From Muribaculaceae bacterium (GTDB taxonomy: Bacteria > Bacteroidota > Bacteroidia > Bacteroidales > Muribaculaceae), in the NCBI GenBank assembly GCA_017964485.1, contig JAGCRW010000028.1, positions 1 to 59,302 on the forward strand: a stretch of 59,302 bases of DNA, in the 5' to 3' direction. Positions 44,620 through 58,551 of the stretch are shown piece by piece. The position numbers and the translations under genes were made by a program. How positions within the stretch are numbered: position 1 is the first letter of the stretch; every line of letters begins with the position of its first letter. The notes under the pieces are model-generated. The model saw only the letters and a program-made list of their open reading frames with translations. It was not told the DNA's origin and ran no database searches.

Positions 44620-45489
44620 ATGAATTATCATTTAAAATCACTGCTCAAGCACTTGTCTTCATCTAATCAGCGTAAAGCCTTAAGAAGGTATAAGCGTCAC
44701 TTTTTGAATAAAGTTAGACCTCGTCGCAAGATCTCATTGAAAGAAATGCGATCAATTATTGTTGATGAGCTAGGTATAGAAAAAGGTGACAGGATTATTG
44801 TATCATCAAGCTTTGGCAATGTTAACGCTTCATTCTCACCTCAAGAAATGATTGACTTACTAATGAATATTATAGGGGATAAAGGTGTTATAATGATGCC
44901 TTATTATCCTCCCATTAATTCAACAGAGTGGGCAGCAAGACATGAGGTTTTTGATATGCGCAACACAAAATCTGGAATGGGCGTTCTTACCAATGTGTTC
45001 TCAAAGATGCCCGGTGTTTATATGAGTAAGCATCCTACTAAAGCAGTTTGCGTGTGGGGAAAAGATGCAAAAGAGATTGCTGCTGGACACGATAAAGCCA
45101 CTACTCCTTTCTATTGGGACTCTCCATATGGTCGTCTCCTTAAGCAGCCTAGCAAGTCACTGGGAATAGGTCTGAAGAACATTCCTATCTTCCACTCCTT
45201 TGAGGATATACTTACCGACCCTATAGATTTCTATTATCAAAAGGACAAATACAAGCTTGACTTGATTGACAAAGAAGGCACACCTACAGTAGTAGAGACT
45301 TATATTCATGATGATAAAGTCTTGAATCATTGTATGACGGCAGGAGATTATGTGCGTGATCTCAAATGCTCGACCTATCGACGTATGTCGGTTGGATATA
45401 AGATAATGTATGTTATCGACAATGATGATTTATTTGATGAGTGCAGGAAACGACAATTTGAAATAGGTAATTTAAGATATCGACCTTGA
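44620..45489 (+). CDS. AAC(3)-family N-acyltransferase of the polysaccharide locus
   Basis: This 289-residue protein belongs to the antibiotic N-acetyltransferase (AAC(3)) fold family. The core is GDRIIVSSSFGNVN, GVIMMPYYPP, SGMGVLTNVFSKMPGV and SKHPTKAVCVWGKDAKEI, the last carrying the conserved His and the acetyl-CoA-proximal loop. In polysaccharide clusters this fold acylates amino sugars rather than drugs (context-based inference). It is the first of a run of overlapping genes continuing with a deacetylase, a CapK-like ligase and an opine dehydrogenase. Confidence 0.82.
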   Translation: MNYHLKSLLKHLSSSNQRKALRRYKRHFLNKVRPRRKISLKEMRSIIVDELGIEKGDRIIVSSSFGNVNASFSPQEMIDLLMNIIGDKGVIMMPYYPPINSTEWAARHEVFDMRNTKSGMGVLTNVFSKMPGVYMSKHPTKAVCVWGKDAKEIAAGHDKATTPFYWDSPYGRLLKQPSKSLGIGLKNIPIFHSFEDILTDPIDFYYQKDKYKLDLIDKEGTPTVVETYIHDDKVLNHCMTAGDYVRDLKCSTYRRMSVGYKIMYVIDNDDLFDECRKRQFEIGNLRYRP

Positions 45490-46526
45490 AGAAACTACTT
45501 CTAACACTCGATTATGAGCTCTTTGGCGATGGTTCTGGTGATGTTTTCAAGCACATTGTTGAGCCTACCAATTCTATCTTAGAAGTGGCAGAGCGTTATG
45601 GAGCCAAAATCACTGTCTTTTTTGAGGTAGTGGAATATTGGCGTCTTAAGCAGCAGTGGGAAAGTGGTAATCACATGGGATATGACAACAACCCTGTTGA
45701 GGCGATGGAAAAGCAAGTTGTGGACATGATAAGGCGTGGCCATGATGTTCAGCTCCACTTTCATCCTCAATGGGTAGATGCTAAATGGGTCGACGATCAT
45801 TGGGAGGTTGACTACAAGAATTGGAGACTGAGTGATTTCAATTCTTCCATTATGACGCTTAAGCAGTTGATAAGTAAAGGCAAGCATACATTGGAGGGTA
45901 TTATTCAACCACATTTCCCTGCTTATGAGTGCTATGCCCTGCGTGCAGGTGGTTATAATGCCCAGCCGTCAGAGGCGATTGTAGAGGCTTTGCGTGAGTG
46001 TGGCATGAGGGTTGATACATCAATAGTGCCTGGTGCCATTGAGCAAGGGGCGCTATCAATATATGATTACAGCACTTCTCCAAGTGATATGGGAAAATGG
46101 TTTGTAGATGAGAAGCTTGAAGAACCTTGCAAAGAAAACACTGATATTATAGAATTGCCTATAGTCTCTTTTCCTATTGTTCGCCTATTCAAGTTTATGT
46201 CCATAACGAGGATTAAATCTATAATGCTTAATCACAAGTCGGCACAAGCTTCTTTTACAGCAAAAACATCTTCGGGAGGCACAAGAGGAGGAATCATAAG
46301 AAAAATATCTTTCTTTTTCAAGAAAGAGTTTCAAACATGGGACTACTGTCTTTTCCCATGCTGGATGCATCGCTATTTTTTGCACAAAATCTCAAAACAG
46401 AAATCTCGTGACATATTTGTCTTGATTGGACACCCAAAAAGCTTAGTGTCAATTAAAAACCTTGAGTTCATGCTTAAGGTGGTTAAAGATAAAATGAAAT
46501 TTGCTATTTTATCCGATTTGACATGA
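45486..46526 (+). CDS. NodB-like polysaccharide deacetylase family protein
   Basis: This 346-residue protein starts with TTG (45486-45488), which overlaps the upstream TGA in TTGA. The frame begins MKKLLLTLDYELFGDG, where DYE corresponds to the catalytic Asp and first metal region of the NodB fold. LHFHPQW (near residue 85) provides the metal His residues, and RAGGYNAQPSEAIVEAL is also conserved in the family. It may remove an acetyl group from an amino sugar and expose an amine. The start of the next gene overlaps its stop (ATGA). Confidence 0.8.
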   Translation: MKKLLLTLDYELFGDGSGDVFKHIVEPTNSILEVAERYGAKITVFFEVVEYWRLKQQWESGNHMGYDNNPVEAMEKQVVDMIRRGHDVQLHFHPQWVDAKWVDDHWEVDYKNWRLSDFNSSIMTLKQLISKGKHTLEGIIQPHFPAYECYALRAGGYNAQPSEAIVEALRECGMRVDTSIVPGAIEQGALSIYDYSTSPSDMGKWFVDEKLEEPCKENTDIIELPIVSFPIVRLFKFMSITRIKSIMLNHKSAQASFTAKTSSGGTRGGIIRKISFFFKKEFQTWDYCLFPCWMHRYFLHKISKQKSRDIFVLIGHPKSLVSIKNLEFMLKVVKDKMKFAILSDLT

Positions 46527-47788
46527 ACAATAAAGTAAAAGAGTTCATACGCGACTTGGCAAGGTTCACGCCTCAGTATCATGCCACTTATAAAAGTTTG
46601 AGTGAAGAGTTCAGTCAAGATAAATTAAGAATGGCAGTTGAGAAGGCTATTAAGAATGTGCCATATTATCGCAACAATGATTATAAAAACTATCTGCCCT
46701 CAACAGATGAGCCTTTCACTTTATCTAATTTCCCTATCTTGACAAAGGATGATATCTCAGGAAGGGAAAAAGATTTTGTATCGGATAAGTTTTTCAAGTT
46801 CTTGCTGCGAAAAGAGAATACAGGTGGAACAACAGGAAAGCCCCTAAAACTTTATTATTCCCCCACTTTGTCTTTTTCTCGCACGGTTTACCCCAACATG
46901 TTATATGAAAAATTTGTTGGAAAGCCTCTTCAGTTAGGACTTTTGCGTGGCAATAAACCATCACAAGGCAAGTTTGTAGAGAGGGTTGGAATGCACAGGG
47001 TGGTCTTTTCTTCTTATCAACTCTATCCTGAGAATGTAGACCGCTACATAGAGGCGATAAAGAGTGAGGGTATCACATGCTTGCTTGCCTACCCTTCGTC
47101 GTTGACGGTTTTGGCTAAATTAATCAAAGATAAGTATGATAAAGTTCGTTTCCCAAAATTAAAGGCGATACTTGCAAGTAGCGAGATTTTCTCGCGAGAA
47201 AACAAGAAGCTTGTAATGGATGTGTTTGAGGGTACTGAACTACTGGATTTTTATAGTATGTCTGAATTTGCCGCAGCAGCACATAGTGTAGGCCTTGGAG
47301 ATTATCAATTTAATATGAACTATGGTTTTGTTGAATTTATACATTCTGGTCAGCAAACTTCATCGGGCAACAAAATCTCAAAAATAATAGCCACATCCAT
47401 TATGAATAGCACTATGCCTCTTATTAGATTTGATACAGGAGATATGGCAGAGCTTGATGATGATGGGAAAGTGCTTTCTATAATAGGTAGAACATCCGAC
47501 TTTGTGGTTAATAAAAACAACGACTTGATGCCATGCATAATAACGCCTCGCGACCGTTCCTTTGAGAATGTGGTGGCATTTCAGTATTATCAGCCACAAG
47601 ATGGTGTACTTGAATTTCATGTGATGGTAAACGAGCATTTTACTAATGATGACTTTGAATATCTATCACAAGACGTTGAGGAGACTTTTCCACAGCGCTT
47701 GATGGACAGTAAGGTGGTTGTAAAGAAAGAGTTAAAGAAGACGCAACAAGGGAAATTGTTGCGATTAGTAAAAGATAATTCAATATAG
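46523..47788 (+). CDS. CapK-like adenylate-forming enzyme
   Basis: This 421-residue member of the phenylacetate-CoA ligase/CapK branch of ANL enzymes has the ATP-binding loop NTGGTTGKPLKLYYS near residues 98-112, a YPSSLTVLAKL segment, and FYSMSEFAAAAHS and RFDTGDMAELDDDGK in the adenylation core. Such proteins activate carboxylic acids as acyl-AMP. In capsule loci they are thought to attach acids to sugars. Adjacency to an opine-dehydrogenase homologue makes an opine carboxylate an attractive but untested substrate. Confidence 0.82.
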   Translation: MNNKVKEFIRDLARFTPQYHATYKSLSEEFSQDKLRMAVEKAIKNVPYYRNNDYKNYLPSTDEPFTLSNFPILTKDDISGREKDFVSDKFFKFLLRKENTGGTTGKPLKLYYSPTLSFSRTVYPNMLYEKFVGKPLQLGLLRGNKPSQGKFVERVGMHRVVFSSYQLYPENVDRYIEAIKSEGITCLLAYPSSLTVLAKLIKDKYDKVRFPKLKAILASSEIFSRENKKLVMDVFEGTELLDFYSMSEFAAAAHSVGLGDYQFNMNYGFVEFIHSGQQTSSGNKISKIIATSIMNSTMPLIRFDTGDMAELDDDGKVLSIIGRTSDFVVNKNNDLMPCIITPRDRSFENVVAFQYYQPQDGVLEFHVMVNEHFTNDDFEYLSQDVEETFPQRLMDSKVVVKKELKKTQQGKLLRLVKDNSI

Positions 47789-47794
47789 TGTGTT

Positions 47795-48997
47795 ATGAAA
47801 CAATTAGTTATTTGCGGAGGTGGGAGTAGTGCCCACACTTTGATTCCATTGTTAAGAGACTCTATTTTTGAGGTATCTCTCTATACTTCACGTCCAGAGC
47901 AATGGAGTCATAGAATAGACCTTGAATGGCATGATCCTTCTGGTAAAGTATTAGGTAACTATTATGGTGAACTGAAGAAGATTTCTAGCAATCCCGATGT
48001 TTTGTTTCATGATGCTGATTATGTTGTGTTTTGTATGCCGGTTCATCGTTATCGTGTTGCTCTACACGAAATTGCCCCCTTCATTAATAAGGAAAAGACT
48101 GTATTTGTTGGTACGGTCTATGGCCAAGGAGGATGGAACTGGATGGTAGATGAGATAAAAAAAGAATTTGGTCTTGATAATATAGTTCCTTTTGCTTTTG
48201 GGCTTATCCCTTGGATTTGTCGCATTATTGAGTATGGGCATAGGGGTGTAACATTCGGATGTAAAGCAACGAATTATGCGGCGGTCTCACCGAAGCATTA
48301 TTTCAAGCAAATTGATGAGGAGTTATTGGAGAATATCTGCTACAAATGGTTTGGAAAGGGTGAAGTTGAACAAAGCGACAACTTTTTGTCGCTAACACTC
48401 TCGGTTGACAACCAAATAATTCACACCTCTCGATGCCTGGGCTTGTATAAAGCATGTGGCTCTACATGGAAACAAAAAGATGACGTGCCATGGTTTTATC
48501 GTGATTATGACGACTTGTCAGCGCAATTGTTGGCAGATTTAGACCAAGATTATGAAAAAATCAGGCAAGCAATCAAATCTTTGTCTCCCGAAAAAGATTA
48601 TAGTTATATGCTCGACTATTTAGCTCTAGAGCGATTCTCTTATAAATCGCAGAATACTGATATACGAGAGTCGTTTGTTAATTCTCAAACTTTAGTCTCA
48701 ATAGGCACTCCAGTAGTGCAAAATGATGACGGGTTATGGGAGGTAGACCGCAATCATCGATTTTTCCTTGATGATATTTACTATGGCAATATGATAGCTA
48801 AATGGATGGCCGAGAAGCTTGATATACCAACACCAACTATTGATGAAATACTTCACTGGGCAGAACAAGTGAGAGGAGAACATTTTATAGGCGACAACAA
48901 TAAATTGCTTGTTGATAGTCCCGACTTGTTGGCCCCATTTAAGTGTGGTGTGCCTAGCGTGTATGGTTTCAATAATATTGAAGACTGTATTGACTGA
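47795..48997 (+). CDS. Opine dehydrogenase-like protein 1
   Basis: This 400-residue protein has an N-terminal Rossmann domain (LVICGGGSSAHTLIPLL) and a C-terminal octopine-DH-like helical domain. A candidate catalytic His210 lies in NQIIHTSR, in the position where opine dehydrogenases carry the His of their His-Asp dyad. Known members reductively condense an amino acid with a keto acid using NAD(P)H. In this position it probably makes an N-carboxyalkyl amine for glycan decoration (inference). It lies 6 bases after the CapK-like gene. A paralogue occurs at 55290. Confidence 0.72.
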   Translation: MKQLVICGGGSSAHTLIPLLRDSIFEVSLYTSRPEQWSHRIDLEWHDPSGKVLGNYYGELKKISSNPDVLFHDADYVVFCMPVHRYRVALHEIAPFINKEKTVFVGTVYGQGGWNWMVDEIKKEFGLDNIVPFAFGLIPWICRIIEYGHRGVTFGCKATNYAAVSPKHYFKQIDEELLENICYKWFGKGEVEQSDNFLSLTLSVDNQIIHTSRCLGLYKACGSTWKQKDDVPWFYRDYDDLSAQLLADLDQDYEKIRQAIKSLSPEKDYSYMLDYLALERFSYKSQNTDIRESFVNSQTLVSIGTPVVQNDDGLWEVDRNHRFFLDDIYYGNMIAKWMAEKLDIPTPTIDEILHWAEQVRGEHFIGDNNKLLVDSPDLLAPFKCGVPSVYGFNNIEDCID

Positions 48998-52491: not shown

Positions 52492-53451
52492 ATGAAGGTT
52501 TCGGTGCTTGTGCCAGTTTTTGGCGTGGAGAGATATATCGAGCAATGTGCCGTGTCTCTCATGGAGCAGACCTACAAGGATGTAGAATACATCTTTGTGG
52601 ATGACTGCACGCCCGATGCTTCAATAGAGCGCTTGCGTGAAGTCGTGGCTAGATTCCCTGAGCGAGAACATCAGGTGAGCATTATCGGCCATGAGCAGAA
52701 CCGTGGTAGCGCGGTGGTTAGGCAGACCTGCCTTGATGCAGCTACTGGCGATGCGGTGATTTTTGTCGATAGCGACGACTATGTTGATGTCCATATGGTT
52801 GAATGTCTTGTCAATGAAATGCAGCAATCTCAAGCCGATATAGTAGATGGCGGCTTTGGCATTGTCTCTAATGGTAAGATTGTCAAGGAAAATATGCCTC
52901 TAAGTGTGAGCGACAAAGCCTACCTTAAGATAATTCTCTGTCAAAACGTGGAACCCAATCGAATTTGGGGCAGGTTGATAAAAACGTCGCTGTTCACCGA
53001 CAATGGCATCCACTTTTATGAAGGCATTGACTATAGTGAGGATTTCTCGGTCTTGCCCAAGCTTCTTCTCAATGCCCGTCGCAGCTGGGTGGATAAGTGT
53101 TTATATTTCTATAGAGACGATAATCCGCAGTCCTATACCAATAACATTTCCACCAAGAATGCCATCTCGTTCTTGAAGGCGCAGAATATTGTTGGTTCCT
53201 TCTTTAAGCAGCATGATGAGTGGAATCAATATTCGTTGGCAGCGCAGATAGGGTGGGTGAATGTGTGGCGGTTTGCCCGACGGTTTAATGTTGATAAGGC
53301 GCTTGTTGAGGAGCATTTCATGCTGAAACCTACCAATATTGTCGCCCGTTCTCTTTTCTCTATGATGAGAAACGATAGATTTCCCTATAAATTAGCAAAT
53401 TTCCTCTACTTGGCAACAAGGCGCATTTATCTCGCTTTTACTAGGCGTTGA
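52492..53451 (+). CDS. GT2 family glycosyltransferase
   Basis: This 319-residue GT-A enzyme begins VSVLVPVFGVERYIEQCAVS. It has LMEQTYKDVEYIFVDDCTPDAS and the donor/metal motif FVDSDDYVDVHM (near residue 90). It probably adds a sugar to the repeat unit; specificity is unknown. It heads a plus-strand operon with the nucleotidyltransferase-PLP fusion and opine dehydrogenase-like gene 2. Confidence 0.9.
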   Translation: MKVSVLVPVFGVERYIEQCAVSLMEQTYKDVEYIFVDDCTPDASIERLREVVARFPEREHQVSIIGHEQNRGSAVVRQTCLDAATGDAVIFVDSDDYVDVHMVECLVNEMQQSQADIVDGGFGIVSNGKIVKENMPLSVSDKAYLKIILCQNVEPNRIWGRLIKTSLFTDNGIHFYEGIDYSEDFSVLPKLLLNARRSWVDKCLYFYRDDNPQSYTNNISTKNAISFLKAQNIVGSFFKQHDEWNQYSLAAQIGWVNVWRFARRFNVDKALVEEHFMLKPTNIVARSLFSMMRNDRFPYKLANFLYLATRRIYLAFTRR

Positions 53452-53484: not shown

Positions 53485-55293
53485 ATGCAAGCATTAATAT
53501 TGGCGGCAGGAATGGGTCGCCGTTTGGGAGAGAAAACCAGCAACAACACCAAGTGCATGGTTGAGGTTAATGGCGTGAAACTGATTGACCGCCTGCTTGG
53601 TCAGCTCAAATCACAGAACATCGACCGCGTGGTGATTGTGGCAGGGTATTGCCGTGAGTCGCTCATGGCTCATGTGGGCGACAGCTATGAGGGTATTCCC
53701 ATTCACTGGGTTATTAATCCCATTTATGACAAGACTAATAACATCTACTCTCTCGCTCTTGCCAAGGATGAGCTTGTGAAAGACGACACATTGCTGATAG
53801 AGAGCGATTTGATTTTTGAAGATGAGTTGTTTGGTATGATTCTAGCCGATCCATATCCAAATCTGGCTCTCGTGGCTAAATATGAGACTTGGATGGATGG
53901 AACTATGGTGCGCATCGATGGCGATAACAACATAGTTAACTTTGTGCCAAAGAAGGCGTTCAACTATGATGAGGTTGACACTTACTATAAGACTGTGAAC
54001 ATCTACAAGTTCAGCCGTGAGTTCAGCGAACAGGTCTATGTCCCCTTCCTCGATGCTTACTGCCGAGTGATGGGAAACAATGAGTATTATGAGCAGGTGT
54101 TGCGTGTTATTACTTTGCTCGACGGCGCCAACCTGAAAGCCTTGCCCATTGGCAATAAGCGATGGTATGAGATTGATGACGTTCAAGACCTTGATATTGC
54201 TGAGAACATCTTCGCTAGTGAGCATGAACGCTTGGGTAAGTATAATAAGCGCTATGGTGGTTACTGGCGTTTCCCAAAGATGCTTGACTTCTGCTATCTT
54301 GTGAACCCATATTTCCCACCCAAGCGCTTGAAAGACGAGCTTAGAGCCAACTTTGATGTGCTTCTCACCGAATATCCCTCTGGAATGCAGGTCAACTCAT
54401 TGTTGGCAGGAAAATACTTCAACATTAGGCAAGAATTTGTTGTGGTGGGCAATGGTGCCGCTGAACTTATTAAAAGTCTGATGGAAAGAATCAAGGGCAA
54501 TATGGGTGTGGTGTTTCCCACTTTTGAAGAATACCCAAATCGCATTGATCGTTCTCGCCTTGTGACTTTCATCCCCAATAATCCCGACTTGAGATATACT
54601 GCCGATGACCTAAAGGAATTTTTTGGCGACAAGGAAATAAATACATTGCTGCTAATTAATCCCGATAACCCATCGGGAAACTTCATTCATAAAGAAGATG
54701 TGCTGGGTTTAGCCGAGTGGTGCCAACAACGAGAAATAAGGCTGATTGTTGACGAATCGTTTGTGGATTTTACCGATGTCTATGCTACTAGTTCTCTGCT
54801 ACATAACGAGATATTGTTGCAATATCCAAATATGGTTGTTGTCAAGAGCATAAGCAAGAGCTATGGTGTTCCAGGTCTGAGGCTTGGCGTGATGGCAAGC
54901 AGCGACACAGAACTCATTGCGACTGTCAAGAAAGATGTGTCAATATGGAACATCAATTCTTTTGCAGAGTTCTATATGCAGATCTTCAATAAATACGAGC
55001 ATTTTTACAAGGCGGCTTGTGGCAAATTCATAGAAGAACGTAATCGTTTTGCAGCAGAGTTGAGAAAAATAAAATATCTGCGTGTGATTCCCTCGCAGGC
55101 CAACTATTTCTTGTGTGAAGTTATTGACCGTTTTACTGCCAATGAACTTACCGAAATACTACTGAATCGTCATAATATTCTCATCAAGGACTGCAATAAC
55201 AAGACTGGCCTTCAGGGTATGAACTATATACGTGTTGCTATCCGTACAAGTGAGGATAATGACAAATTAATCAAAGCATTACAATCGCTATGA
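53485..55293 (+). CDS. LicC-like nucleotidyltransferase fused to a CobD/HisC-like PLP enzyme
   Basis: This 602-residue bifunctional protein has two domains. Residues 1-250 are a sugar-1-phosphate/choline-phosphate nucleotidyltransferase domain, with the signature ALILAAGMGRRLGEKTSNNT, Lys23 and an IESDLIFED metal site. Residues 257-602 are a fold-type I PLP domain with GNGAAELI, NPDNPSG, VDESFVDF, PLP-lysine Lys458 in SISKSYGVPGLRLG, and a C-terminal YIRVAIRT substrate Arg. The VPGLRLG context is closer to threonine-phosphate decarboxylase (CobD) than to HisC. It could make an amino-alcohol phosphate and activate it as a CDP derivative for LicD. The stop overlaps the next start (ATGA). Confidence 0.85.
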   Translation: MQALILAAGMGRRLGEKTSNNTKCMVEVNGVKLIDRLLGQLKSQNIDRVVIVAGYCRESLMAHVGDSYEGIPIHWVINPIYDKTNNIYSLALAKDELVKDDTLLIESDLIFEDELFGMILADPYPNLALVAKYETWMDGTMVRIDGDNNIVNFVPKKAFNYDEVDTYYKTVNIYKFSREFSEQVYVPFLDAYCRVMGNNEYYEQVLRVITLLDGANLKALPIGNKRWYEIDDVQDLDIAENIFASEHERLGKYNKRYGGYWRFPKMLDFCYLVNPYFPPKRLKDELRANFDVLLTEYPSGMQVNSLLAGKYFNIRQEFVVVGNGAAELIKSLMERIKGNMGVVFPTFEEYPNRIDRSRLVTFIPNNPDLRYTADDLKEFFGDKEINTLLLINPDNPSGNFIHKEDVLGLAEWCQQREIRLIVDESFVDFTDVYATSSLLHNEILLQYPNMVVVKSISKSYGVPGLRLGVMASSDTELIATVKKDVSIWNINSFAEFYMQIFNKYEHFYKAACGKFIEERNRFAAELRKIKYLRVIPSQANYFLCEVIDRFTANELTEILLNRHNILIKDCNNKTGLQGMNYIRVAIRTSEDNDKLIKALQSL

Positions 55294-56315
55294 CAAACAT
55301 CTGCATTTGCGGTGGAGGCTCGCTTGGTCACACGATAGCTGGCTTTGTGGCTTCGCAAGATAATTACAATGTTAGTGTCTTGACACGTCATCCTGAGAAA
55401 TGGTGTCAGTCGATTGATGTTATCGATTTGAACAATTACCATTATCATGGGGAACTGTCATGCATAACCGATGCCCCTTCAATAGTGGTGCCAAATGCCG
55501 ACGTTGTATTGCTATGCTTGCCTGGTTTCGCCATCAAAGATGTGCTGCAACAAATCTCTCCATATTTATGCGCTTCTACTTTTGTTGGGACAGTGGTGTC
55601 AAGCACAGGCTTTTTCTTCATGGCAGGTGAGGTCTTTCCCTCCGATATTCCTGTTTTTGGTTTCCAGCGAGTGCCTTTTATCGCTCGAACTAAGGAATAC
55701 GGCAAGAGTGCAAGTCTGCTGGGTTATAAACCAAGTCTTAGTGTTGCGATTGAGAATACTTCAGACGACAAGAAGCGTGATTTAGTGACTTTACTAGAGC
55801 AAATTTTCCACGTCCCCGTAAAATTGCTCAATAGTCATTACGAGGTGAGTCTTACCAATAGTAATCCGCTGCTTCACACATCTCGCATCTACACTTTATG
55901 GAAAGACTGGAAACCGGGAGTGAGATACGACAGATGTTCGATGTTCTATGCAGATTGGACCATAGAGGCCGCGCATTATTACATTGAGATGGACAGAGAA
56001 TTTCAAGCATTGCTCAAATTGCTTCCAGTTGCTGAAGGCGCGATTCCTAATGTTCTCGACTACTATGAAAGCCATGACGAGCAATCACTTCGTGATAAAC
56101 TCGCTTCGATTCCTGCATTCAAATCTTTAACAGCCCCTATGATTGGAAATGATAATGATGGTTATGAACCCGACTTCAACAGCCGCTATTTTACAGAAGA
56201 TTTTCCATATGGACTGAGTTCGATTGTGAAAGTAGCAAGAGAGAATAACTTTTCAACTCCGATTATTGACGAGGTTTATCAATGGGGTATGAGAATGATT
56301 GCTCATAGCCAATAA
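55290..56315 (+). CDS. Opine dehydrogenase-like protein 2
   Basis: This 341-residue protein is a paralogue of the 47795 gene. It has the Rossmann loop ICICGGGSLGHTIAGF and a candidate catalytic His196 in SNPLLHTSR, then FYADW where copy 1 has FYRDY. It is shorter than copy 1, mainly at the C-terminus. It is translationally coupled to the nucleotidyltransferase-PLP fusion (ATGA), so its amine substrate may be that enzyme's product. Its 3' end overlaps the LicD gene tail-to-tail by 13 bases. Confidence 0.72.
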   Translation: MTNICICGGGSLGHTIAGFVASQDNYNVSVLTRHPEKWCQSIDVIDLNNYHYHGELSCITDAPSIVVPNADVVLLCLPGFAIKDVLQQISPYLCASTFVGTVVSSTGFFFMAGEVFPSDIPVFGFQRVPFIARTKEYGKSASLLGYKPSLSVAIENTSDDKKRDLVTLLEQIFHVPVKLLNSHYEVSLTNSNPLLHTSRIYTLWKDWKPGVRYDRCSMFYADWTIEAAHYYIEMDREFQALLKLLPVAEGAIPNVLDYYESHDEQSLRDKLASIPAFKSLTAPMIGNDNDGYEPDFNSRYFTEDFPYGLSSIVKVARENNFSTPIIDEVYQWGMRMIAHSQ

Positions 56316-57085
56316 GCCTCAAAATCGTGCTGGACACGTTTCTCTACTGGCGGCAATGTCATGTAGTCGCCGTAGGTATTGGTGAGAAATTCTTTATATC
56401 CCACCATTGTTTTATATAATTTCCCTTCAAACTCGATGTCCACGTCGCTGGCGATGCAACTTGCAGGGAAGCATGATTCAATGCCTGGACCAGCCTCGGT
56501 GAGGTTGCAAACCAAAGATGACTTTTTGCAGCTGGTGATAAGGCGTTCTATCTCATTATTTAGGCTTCTGAGCGAGCGAGGCCAGTGCTTATAGACGATA
56601 TAAGCCATCTTGGAATACAGTGGGTTGTTGTGCGAAATTTTGCATCGTCTGATTTTGTATAACAGATGTTTGCGCTTAAATACCTTAGCTCTTTCATCGG
56701 GGTCATCGCTGATGTAATCAATAGGAAAGATGTCAATGTAAACGCCAATCTCATAGCCAGGAGTCTCGGTCTCAACCATTAGGGTAGTGGTATCGACCAC
56801 TTTGGCAAAGGTGTAGTAGTAGTTTGGTTCAGAGTGGGGATTGATTACACGATATCTACCTGATGGACACGTGTAAGAGTTGATGAATCGCTCATAACTC
56901 TCGCGTGGCATGTATAGGTCGATGTCGTCATCCCAAGGAATATAGCCCTTGTGTCGGACCGCACCAATCAGCGTGCCGCTCGAGAGGAAATAGGTAATGC
57001 CCTCTTGCTGGCAGAACTCGTGGATGGAGTCGAGGATCGCCATCTGTATTGAGCGCAGCTCATTTATGTCGGTAATGCGTTTCAT
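56303..57085 (-). CDS. LicD family phosphotransferase
   Basis: This 260-residue protein is of the LicD/nucleotidyltransferase-fold type, which moves phosphocholine or similar groups from a CDP donor onto a glycan. The signature SSGTLIGAVRHKGYIPWDDD, with the catalytic Asp cluster at residues 52-56 (DDDID), is intact. The ATG at 57085 overlaps the stop of the flippase gene (ATGA), which supports this start over one 42 bases earlier. Its neighbour, a LicC-like fusion enzyme, is a plausible source of the CDP donor. Confidence 0.9.
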   Translation of the reverse strand: MKRITDINELRSIQMAILDSIHEFCQQEGITYFLSSGTLIGAVRHKGYIPWDDDIDLYMPRESYERFINSYTCPSGRYRVINPHSEPNYYYTFAKVVDTTTLMVETETPGYEIGVYIDIFPIDYISDDPDERAKVFKRKHLLYKIRRCKISHNNPLYSKMAYIVYKHWPRSLRSLNNEIERLITSCKKSSLVCNLTEAGPGIESCFPASCIASDVDIEFEGKLYKTMVGYKEFLTNTYGDYMTLPPVEKRVQHDFEAYWL

Positions 57086-58551
57086 GTTTGCTGTTTTTTC
57101 AGTTTTTTTCTCATGAATTCCCAGCACTCGGCGAAGATTTTCACGTTTGCTAGTTTCATCACGGCTATGTATAAGGCTGCGCCCACTATAACTTTGGATA
57201 TGAGAAGAATAATGTTGTTTTCAATCCAGAATGTGGCGAGGTGGGTGAGGGCAAACACAACTATAGTAATCACCAAGAATGGCGCGATGTCGAGAATCGC
57301 CTCTAGCCATTTAAGGTTGATTAGATGCTTTGCCACTATTTGCCATGCTGCAAGCCACAAAATCATAAAGACAGAATAAACAGTGACCACCACAATGATA
57401 GACTTGGAGAACAGGTAGTAACAAAGCAAAATTATGCCAATTTGCAACACTATCTGCCCTACGTTACACCACAGATATAGGTCGCTGCGCTTGCATCCAA
57501 TGGCTAGATGCTGATAAACCGTGTATAATGGCATAAATGCGCCAGCAACACATAGCACTTGCAGCAGAGGGGTACATTCTATCCACTTGGCTCCCAGCAC
57601 CACCTCAACAAACTCCTTAGCCACAAATGCCAACCCGAGCATCACTGGGAAAGCTAAAAAGGCTGTAAAGCGAATCATCTTTCGGAAGACACGCTTTTGT
57701 CGGTCTTTGTCGTTATCTACATTCACAAGCACCGGTTGTGCCACTTGACCCATTGTGCCGCTAACGAAGGTATTTGCCTGCGTGTTCCATTTGTTGGCCT
57801 GAGAGAAGTTGCCCACTTGTGCGATAGGGAAGAAACGCCCGAAAATGAAAGTGAGAATCTGTCCACTCAAGGTGTTGATGATGTTGGTGAAGAGGATATT
57901 GACAGCGAAGCCAAACATCCGTTTCACTGGTCCAAAATCAATCTTCCATGATGGACGCCATTTCACGAAGTAGTATCTGCCTAAGTTGAGCGCGGTGATA
58001 TATACGACCTGTTGCCAGGCAAGGCTCCAATAGGCAAAGCCCTTAAATGCCAGCACTATGCCAGTACAGCCAGAACAGAGCAAGGCTATAAGATTGATGA
58101 TAGCAATCTCACGGTTCATCAGGTTCTTTAGCATATAGCCGCCATGTGCAATGCCTAAAGAAGAAATCAAGAAGGCAAGGAATATAAACCTCGATACATC
58201 AACCAGCACTGGTTGATGAAAGAAGTCGGCAATCAGTGGTGCACAAAACCATAGGATGGCATAAAGAATAACACTTGCTATAACATTGAACCAGAAAACA
58301 GAGTTGTAGTCTTCAGGTTTTGGCGGCTTTAAGTTGATTAATGCCTGAGTGAAACCGCTGCTTTGCAAGTTGCCGGCGATGAGCGAGAAAATGGTGAGCA
58401 CCCCCACGATGCCGTAGTCGCCTGGAGTGAGCAGACGAGCCAAGACTACACCAAAGAGTATGTTAAGCACCTGCAGCGTGCCGTTGTTGAGCATGCTCCA
58501 GAACAGGCTCTGCTTTGTGCGTTCTTTCAATGGTTGTGGGCTGAGTTCCAT
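57082..58551 (-). CDS. Wzx-like oligosaccharide flippase, copy 2
   Basis: This 489-residue polytopic member of the MOP/PST family starts near LKERTKQSLFWSMLNNGTLQ and has the LLTPGDYGIVGVLTIFSLIAGNLQ segment typical of Wzx-type and lipopolysaccharide transport flippases. It is the second flippase of the locus, so two glycans or two unrelated substrates may be exported. It forms an operon with LicD and has a clear promoter upstream. Confidence 0.88.
   Translation of the reverse strand: MELSPQPLKERTKQSLFWSMLNNGTLQVLNILFGVVLARLLTPGDYGIVGVLTIFSLIAGNLQSSGFTQALINLKPPKPEDYNSVFWFNVIASVILYAILWFCAPLIADFFHQPVLVDVSRFIFLAFLISSLGIAHGGYMLKNLMNREIAIINLIALLCSGCTGIVLAFKGFAYWSLAWQQVVYITALNLGRYYFVKWRPSWKIDFGPVKRMFGFAVNILFTNIINTLSGQILTFIFGRFFPIAQVGNFSQANKWNTQANTFVSGTMGQVAQPVLVNVDNDKDRQKRVFRKMIRFTAFLAFPVMLGLAFVAKEFVEVVLGAKWIECTPLLQVLCVAGAFMPLYTVYQHLAIGCKRSDLYLWCNVGQIVLQIGIILLCYYLFSKSIIVVVTVYSVFMILWLAAWQIVAKHLINLKWLEAILDIAPFLVITIVVFALTHLATFWIENNIILLISKVIVGAALYIAVMKLANVKIFAECWEFMRKKLKKQQT

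Follow-up and report, generated by a model that had tools for sequence, protein, structure and literature searches.

Among the closest described systems, the Lic-1 phosphocholine pathway (LicA-LicB-LicC-LicD) combines LicC-type activation as a cytidine diphosphate (CDP) derivative with transfer by LicD (PMC10434233), and PntC-AEPT of Treponema denticola carries a LicC-like cytidylyltransferase N-terminal to a pyridoxal-phosphate (PLP) enzyme, a class V transaminase, and activates a two-carbon aminophosphonate in a pathway that makes its phosphonate with phosphoenolpyruvate (PEP) mutase (Rice et al. 2019, PMC6697681). For the capsule of Campylobacter jejuni, Cj1436 decarboxylates L-serine-phosphate to ethanolamine phosphate (PMC11800397). 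We describe a module of three adjacent genes, encoding a nucleotidyltransferase (NTase)-PLP fusion, an opine dehydrogenase and a LicD family phosphotransferase, in a contig of a Muribaculaceae bacterium (assembly GCA_017964485.1, contig JAGCRW010000028.1, positions 1 to 59,302 of the forward strand; this whole stretch of 59,302 nucleotides (nt) is termed the window). We consider it fairly probable, from the sequences of these genes and their relatives, that they form a self-contained decoration pathway running from phosphoserine through phosphoethanolamine and CDP-ethanolamine, with reductive N-carboxyalkylation, to transfer by LicD.

Gene arrangement and recurrence of the module

The first gene (53485-55293, plus strand) encodes a protein of 602 amino acids (aa) in which an N-terminal LicC/PntC-like NTase domain (residues 1-245, 53485..54219) precedes a C-terminal fold-type I PLP domain (54217..55293), with Pfam matches to NTP_transf_3 and Aminotran_1_2; the open reading frame (ORF) and Pfam results thus confirm the fusion of a LicC-like NTase to a PLP domain claimed in the original prediction, which had been made from the sequence alone. 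The stop codon of the fusion and the start codon of the opine dehydrogenase gene (55290-56315, plus strand, 341 aa, Octopine_DH) overlap in an ATGA at 55290-55293, and the opine dehydrogenase and licD genes (the latter at 56303-57085, minus strand, 260 aa, PF04991) lie tail-to-tail with 13 nt shared between their 3' ends, both as had been claimed.

Of 297 related genomes, 69 gave a match to the fusion with an expectation value (E) of <=1e-40; among these, one has the PLP part only (G182), two have separate neighbouring genes (G227 and G266) and two have matches that are cut short (G013 and G069). Of 395 genomes drawn from across the phylum, two, including that of the window itself, contained the fusion at the stricter threshold of E<=1e-70. 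A scan of public genomes gave at least 579 encoding stretches, of which the best 80 were used together with 19 further loci; one of these 99 had fewer than 1200 nt downstream and was dropped to leave 98, and removal of the exact duplicates L124 and L139 gave a final set of 96 loci, among which near-identical strains may remain. An imine-reducing dehydrogenase lies no more than 250 nt downstream of the fusion in 86 of the 96 loci (88 of 98 before duplicate removal), namely an opine dehydrogenase in 63 and a member of the ornithine cyclodeaminase/mu-crystallin (OCD) family in 23; the opine dehydrogenase of L055 was missed by the ORF caller and detected by tblastn. L058, from Xylanibacter rarus, has an opine dehydrogenase and a licD arranged like those of the window, and L068, from Bacteroides cellulosilyticus, has the OCD enzyme; both species are cultured commensals. 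LicD is found within 4 kb of the fusion in 66 of 96 loci and within 1.5 kb in 54, a count that misses one LicD adjoining the fusion in L142.

Profile searches of the window's own genome (G000; 2.73 Mb, 90.66% complete) detected two Octopine_DH genes, both inside the window, and one LicD match, the licD of the window, and the same searches matched Octopine_DH in none and LicD in two of 14 control genomes. Because the own genome holds two Octopine_DH genes and one LicD gene and related genomes show the same arrangement again, the association of fusion, opine dehydrogenase and LicD is beyond chance. Protein fusions extend this pattern. The NTase, PLP and opine dehydrogenase parts are present in a single ORF of 943-953 aa in 15 loci, representing nine distinct proteins (all three parts were confirmed by Pfam in the one protein checked, the 946-aa ORF of L043), and opine dehydrogenase is fused to LicD in a single ORF of 591-608 aa in six loci (L069, L074, L077, L100, L103 and L106; both parts were confirmed by Pfam in the one protein checked, from L103). 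Since the fusions in relatives together join all four activities, these activities very likely form one pathway. The fusions and the occupancy of the reductase slot in 86 of 96 loci support the logic originally proposed for the module, in which a CDP-amino-alcohol is made, its amine is modified by reduction and the product is transferred by LicD.

Domain assignments and the proposed pathway

The NTP_transf_3 match covers residues 3-117 of the fusion (E 4.3e-13, 50.2 bits against a cut-off of 27), and the top two solved relatives of the NTase domain are LicC (1jyk, 1.3e-12) and PntC-AEPT (6pd1, 1.1e-11), with weak resemblance also to sugar nucleotidyltransferases. Residues E106-S107-D108 are invariant in all 88 aligned rows, and Glu106 aligns with Glu104 of PntC and with the LicC residue taken as Asp105 (chain numbering), placing an acidic residue at the amine-contact position as in enzymes of the LicC/PntC type; the second PntC contact residue, Glu196, was not alignable with the window domain. 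In PntC both glutamates are positioned for binding of a primary amine, and LicC has smaller aspartate residues at the two positions as well as an aromatic box, although aromatic residues are present in another PntC too and so are not decisive alone for specificity (PMC6697681). These features point to a LicC/PntC-type cytidylyltransferase with cytidine triphosphate (CTP) as the predicted donor, and, because glutamate occupies the PntC amine-contact position in 88 of 88 rows, the domain would favour a small primary amine over choline; a CTP:phosphoethanolamine (or similar) cytidylyltransferase is predicted.

The Aminotran_1_2 (class I/II) match of the PLP domain covers residues 307-599 (E 4.1e-32). 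Its closest solved structure is SMUL_1544 (6oux, 4.9e-45, 28% identity), followed by 3ftb, which carries the label histidinol-phosphate aminotransferase, then by CobD (1lc5, 2.7e-32) and, lower, by HisC structures. The fusion was modelled with a mean predicted local distance difference test score (pLDDT) of 80.4 and a predicted template modelling score (pTM) of 0.69, and a fold search with the whole chain placed PntC-AEPT at the top, with low template modelling (TM) values of 0.34-0.38, and SMUL_1544 and CobD next. Lys458, the WNIN motif at 488-491, Arg583 and Arg587 are invariant in 28 aligned rows (alignment A1); SMUL_1544 and CobD also have Arg at the position of Arg587, within an R-x-A-x-R motif, where 3ftb has Lys and Escherichia coli HisC has Gly. 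A tree of 18 rows groups the PLP domain and its NTase-linked relatives with SMUL_1544 (support 100/99), and HisC and CobD fall outside this group. Sequence, fold and tree thus agree in suggesting a SMUL_1544-like decarboxylase, with O-phospho-L-serine as its predicted substrate. SMUL_1544, from Sulfurospirillum multivorans, is said to have a role in norcobamide synthesis and reportedly acts on phosphoserine.

The opine dehydrogenase matches Octopine_DH (PF02317) with E 4.2e-29 and 101.9 bits against a cut-off of 30, and retains the family motifs CGGG, NSNP.LH and RYF.ED. It also matches octopine dehydrogenase (3c7a, 8.2e-31), with which it has RY.TED in common and whose His212, which we take to be catalytic, aligns with His196 of the window protein. 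LicD matches PF04991 with E 4.9e-43 and 148.3 bits against a cut-off of 22.6, and its motif GTL.GA.RH.G.IPWDDD.D, which includes the DD motif, is kept in more than 90% of 65 rows. The alternative occupant of the slot after the fusion was assigned to the OCD family by Pfam in three members, one of which matched structures of ketimine reductase, alanine dehydrogenase and iminosuccinate reductase. OCD enzymes and opine dehydrogenases belong to separate Pfam families, and both reduce C=N bonds. Because two unrelated C=N-reducing families occur in the same slot, the step that follows the fusion is probably an imine reduction.

The pathway that we propose would draw O-phospho-L-serine from the route of serine synthesis; the PLP domain would decarboxylate it to phosphoethanolamine, and the fused NTase would join phosphoethanolamine to cytidine monophosphate (CMP) to give CDP-ethanolamine. 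The opine dehydrogenase, using NAD(P)H, would reduce the imine that a 2-keto acid, probably pyruvate, forms with the primary amine of either phosphoethanolamine or CDP-ethanolamine, and the result would be an N-(1-carboxyalkyl)ethanolamine phosphate; this reductive step may come before or after the cytidylyl step. Finally, LicD is predicted to transfer the phosphate group from CMP to a sugar of the surface polysaccharide specified by the locus in which the genes lie. That the unit would be a phosphate rather than a phosphonate follows from the PEP mutase (PF13714) search, which at E<=0.001 gave no matches in the own genome (assembly 90.66% complete) and matched 11 of 14 genomes in the control search.

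Alternative explanations

Several observations weigh against this pathway. The PLP domain reaches 195.6 bits with the CobD model TIGR01140, under the cut-off of 290.55, and the position of CobD Arg323 is occupied by Lys568 in the window and by Lys in 85 of 88 rows; the original description of the domain as 'CobD-like' thus holds at the superfamily level and not beyond it, with SMUL_1544 as the nearest solved structure. Branches of the PLP tree are long, with a caution from the program that joins may be false, and a decarboxylase is not distinguishable with certainty from an aminotransferase by sequence. Neither reductase is found within 250 nt in 10 of the 96 loci, and no LicD was found within 4 kb of the fusion in 30, in 22 of which none was found in the whole stretch taken. 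Four of the 23 OCD loci (L042, L044, L048 and L049) have their OCD gene on the opposite strand, and both an opine dehydrogenase and an OCD gene follow the fusion in L072 and L134; because of these two patterns, the two enzymes may not be simple equivalents. The licD of the window lies on the strand opposite to the fusion. Lastly, plasmids of Bradyrhizobium and Mesorhizobium carry the NTase and the PLP enzyme as separate genes next to PEP mutase, and related NTase/PLP pairs may therefore serve phosphonates.

The co-occurrence of both reductases in L072 and L134 is unexplained by a simple replacement of one by the other. Among the loci that lack a reductase, LicD directly follows the fusion in L081, L090, L128 and also L142, a LicD match lies just upstream in L133, L086 and L087 and 1.5 kb downstream in L126, and no LicD was seen in L088 and L104. 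The loci in which LicD directly follows the fusion would be accounted for if the group were transferred unmodified.

The alternative that survives best, although we consider it unlikely, is that the PLP domain acts as an aminotransferase, converting dihydroxyacetone phosphate to serinol phosphate, and that CDP-serinol is made, N-carboxyalkylated and transferred. The domain shares its fold and superfamily with aminotransferases, the HisC model TIGR01141 gives 148.3 bits (under its cut-off of 276.55), and there is a precedent in Campylobacter, where Cj1437 makes (S)-serinol phosphate (PMC11800397). This explanation has to contend with the higher score of the CobD model (195.6 versus 148.3 bits), with the SMUL_1544 decarboxylase as both the nearest structure and the tree neighbour of the domain, and with retention of Arg587 of the R-x-A-x-R motif, common to CobD and SMUL_1544 but Gly in E. 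coli HisC. Somewhat less probable again is decarboxylation of another phospho-amino acid, such as phosphothreonine, which would make the unit an aminopropanol phosphate: CobD, a threonine-phosphate decarboxylase, is among the best matches, but SMUL_1544 is nearer by sequence (4.9e-45 versus 2.7e-32).

The opine dehydrogenase could be a mere neighbour whose substrate is an unrelated compound, either a free amino acid or an amino sugar, which we regard as improbable. The strand of the window licD fits this explanation, as does a second opine dehydrogenase gene (47795-48997) situated away from the fusion, which suggests that opine chemistry is perhaps used elsewhere in the cluster; set against them are the nine distinct proteins in which opine dehydrogenase is fused to the NTase-PLP pair, the six loci in which it is fused to LicD and its position directly downstream of the fusion in 63 of 96 loci.

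It is very improbable that the genes form a Pnt (phosphonate tailoring) module that uses 2-aminoethylphosphonate, like PntC-AEPT of T. denticola. PntC-AEPT is the top fold match and has the same domain order, and the rhizobial NTase/PLP pairs adjoin PEP mutase, but PEP mutase was not matched in the own genome (E<=0.001, 90.66% complete) and the PLP domain belongs to class I/II, in place of the class V named for PntC-AEPT; for want of a PEP mutase match, a phosphonate reading was rejected for this genome. The rhizobial plasmid sets, each with PEP mutase, a LicC-like NTase and a related PLP gene (L121 5684-9737; L122 4723-9221), may represent a phosphonoalanine-decarboxylating route to aminoethylphosphonate, and thus perhaps a phosphonate counterpart of the window module.

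Hardly credible is the pairing, either half of which the original prediction had named as a refutation of itself, of a histidinol-phosphate aminotransferase with an NTase acting on a sugar-1-phosphate: the family resemblance to HisC and the weak N-terminal likeness to sugar nucleotidyltransferases are outweighed by the HisC score under its cut-off, the failure to find HisD or any HisC over the cut-off in the own genome (90.66% complete), the place of the PLP domain beside SMUL_1544 (in a tree of few rows and long branches), the nearest solved relatives of the NTase (LicC and PntC) and the LicD or CDP-alcohol phosphotransferase genes that adjoin the fusion in many relatives, and an assignment of the PLP domain to HisC was rejected. 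The same searches of this 90.66% complete assembly suggest, as a separate observation, that the organism may lack histidine synthesis.

Distant relatives and genomic context

Variants of the module are present in distant relatives. On a cyanobacterial plasmid from Gloeothece (L118 6977-10439), a fusion, an S-adenosylmethionine (SAM) methyltransferase and LicD are consecutive and are preceded by two glycosyltransferases. This is the layout expected for N-methylation, possibly to a choline-like group made from an amino acid, and a methyltransferase in place of the reductase fits the same logic as the window module. The NTase and PLP parts adjoin a CDP-alcohol phosphotransferase on a Rahnella plasmid, on a Priestia plasmid and in G227. 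A Fusobacterium record holds a full-length fusion, 49% identical; LicD lies upstream of it, and on the downstream side a DUF1015 gene (L116 9820-10869) overlaps its end. For a Fusobacterium nucleatum strain, licC and licD are reported as present and a lic operon as absent in a 2007 genome paper (PMC1924603). A possible role of this DUF1015 gene as a serine kinase that supplies the pathway with its phospho-amino acid was considered, but the literature searched gave no link and inspection by eye of the ORFs surrounding the DUF1015 gene of the own genome recognised no serine-synthesis gene, and we give the idea no weight.

The setting of the window module is, judged by its gene families, a surface-polysaccharide locus: the surrounding genes encode a glycosyltransferase of family 2, a WecG/TagA enzyme and two flippase-type proteins of the Polysacc_synt kind. 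The glycosyltransferase gene lies upstream of the fusion (52492..53451, plus strand; Glycos_transf_2 E 5.7e-27), and a gene for a flippase-type membrane protein (57082-58551, minus strand; Polysacc_synt_3 E 1.7e-76) lies beyond licD. The ATG of licD (57085, minus strand) overlaps the stop codon of this flippase-type gene (58551-57082), and licD is therefore coupled to the flippase-type gene and not to the fusion. Relatives of the flippase-type protein (cluster 3) are near the fusion in 41 of the 78 loci of the neighbour-cluster count, from which L057 and L063 were left out because neither had a full-length fusion ORF that qualified.

The second opine dehydrogenase of the window (400 aa, 47795-48997) is downstream of a PaaK-like AMP-forming ligase, the pair spanning 46523-48997, and an aminoglycoside-acetyltransferase-like gene (44620-45489) is nearby. 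These three genes may constitute another decoration set in the same locus.

Comparison with known systems

Gut and rumen Bacteroidales possess a conserved, sometimes fused set of four enzymes, whose most likely role is to produce an activated ethanolamine-like phosphate, change its amine in an opine-type reaction and attach the product to the surface sugar coat. A broader proposal, which we regard as evenly poised, is that of a modular line in these bacteria from phosphoserine through CDP-N-(1-carboxyalkyl)ethanolamine to an opine-type phosphodiester on surface glycans, for which two unrelated imine reductases have been recruited to the same step and in which the amine of the CDP-amino-alcohols made is interchangeably of the opine type, reduced from another imine, N-methylated or left plain. 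If true, this would explain a gene present in 69 of 297 sampled related genomes and would predict that the polysaccharides of gut and rumen Bacteroidales bear a class of phosphodiester decorations that are zwitterionic or acidic, and the single fused enzymes would let most of the route be examined in one tube.

The predicted end product, if the keto acid is pyruvate, would have a counterpart in a different phylum. The O-antigen of Proteus mirabilis O14 reportedly carries 2-[(R)-1-carboxyethylamino]ethyl phosphate, said to have been described by Perepelov and colleagues in 1999; the literature search did not confirm this, and we take it as a lead only. The module could point to a genetic basis for such an N-carboxyethylated ethanolamine phosphate.

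A further likeness is to SMUL_1544, which is a separate chain of 393 aa, unlike the fused PLP domain of the window. PntC-AEPT resembles the fusion in the placing of its LicC-like domain and in the Glu at the amine-contact position (PMC6697681), and the window module differs in its class I/II, SMUL_1544/CobD-like PLP domain, in the lack of a PEP mutase match in its own genome and in the opine dehydrogenase that follows. With the Lic-1 pathway the module has in common CDP-activation of the LicC type and transfer by LicD; its head group, however, is predicted to derive from an amino acid through the fused PLP enzyme and not from imported choline (PMC10434233), Glu replaces LicC Asp105 in the NTase, and an imine reductase is added. 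The ethanolamine/serinol branch of C. jejuni likewise serves a surface polysaccharide and uses a PLP decarboxylase to turn serine phosphate into ethanolamine phosphate, but there Cj1435 removes the phosphate and the amide ligase Cj1438 joins the group, and the available portion of the source mentions neither a CDP step nor an opine dehydrogenase (PMC11800397). The original prediction knew of no described pathway with this combination, and the literature searched likewise yielded no description of LicD-type decoration united with an opine dehydrogenase or OCD enzyme, nor of the fusions. Cytidylyl activation with LicD transfer (Lic-1, PMC10434233) and phosphoserine decarboxylation for a capsule (Campylobacter, PMC11800397) are already known, and what is new, relative to the literature searched, is the union of the two with an opine dehydrogenase or OCD enzyme, together with the protein fusions that join them.

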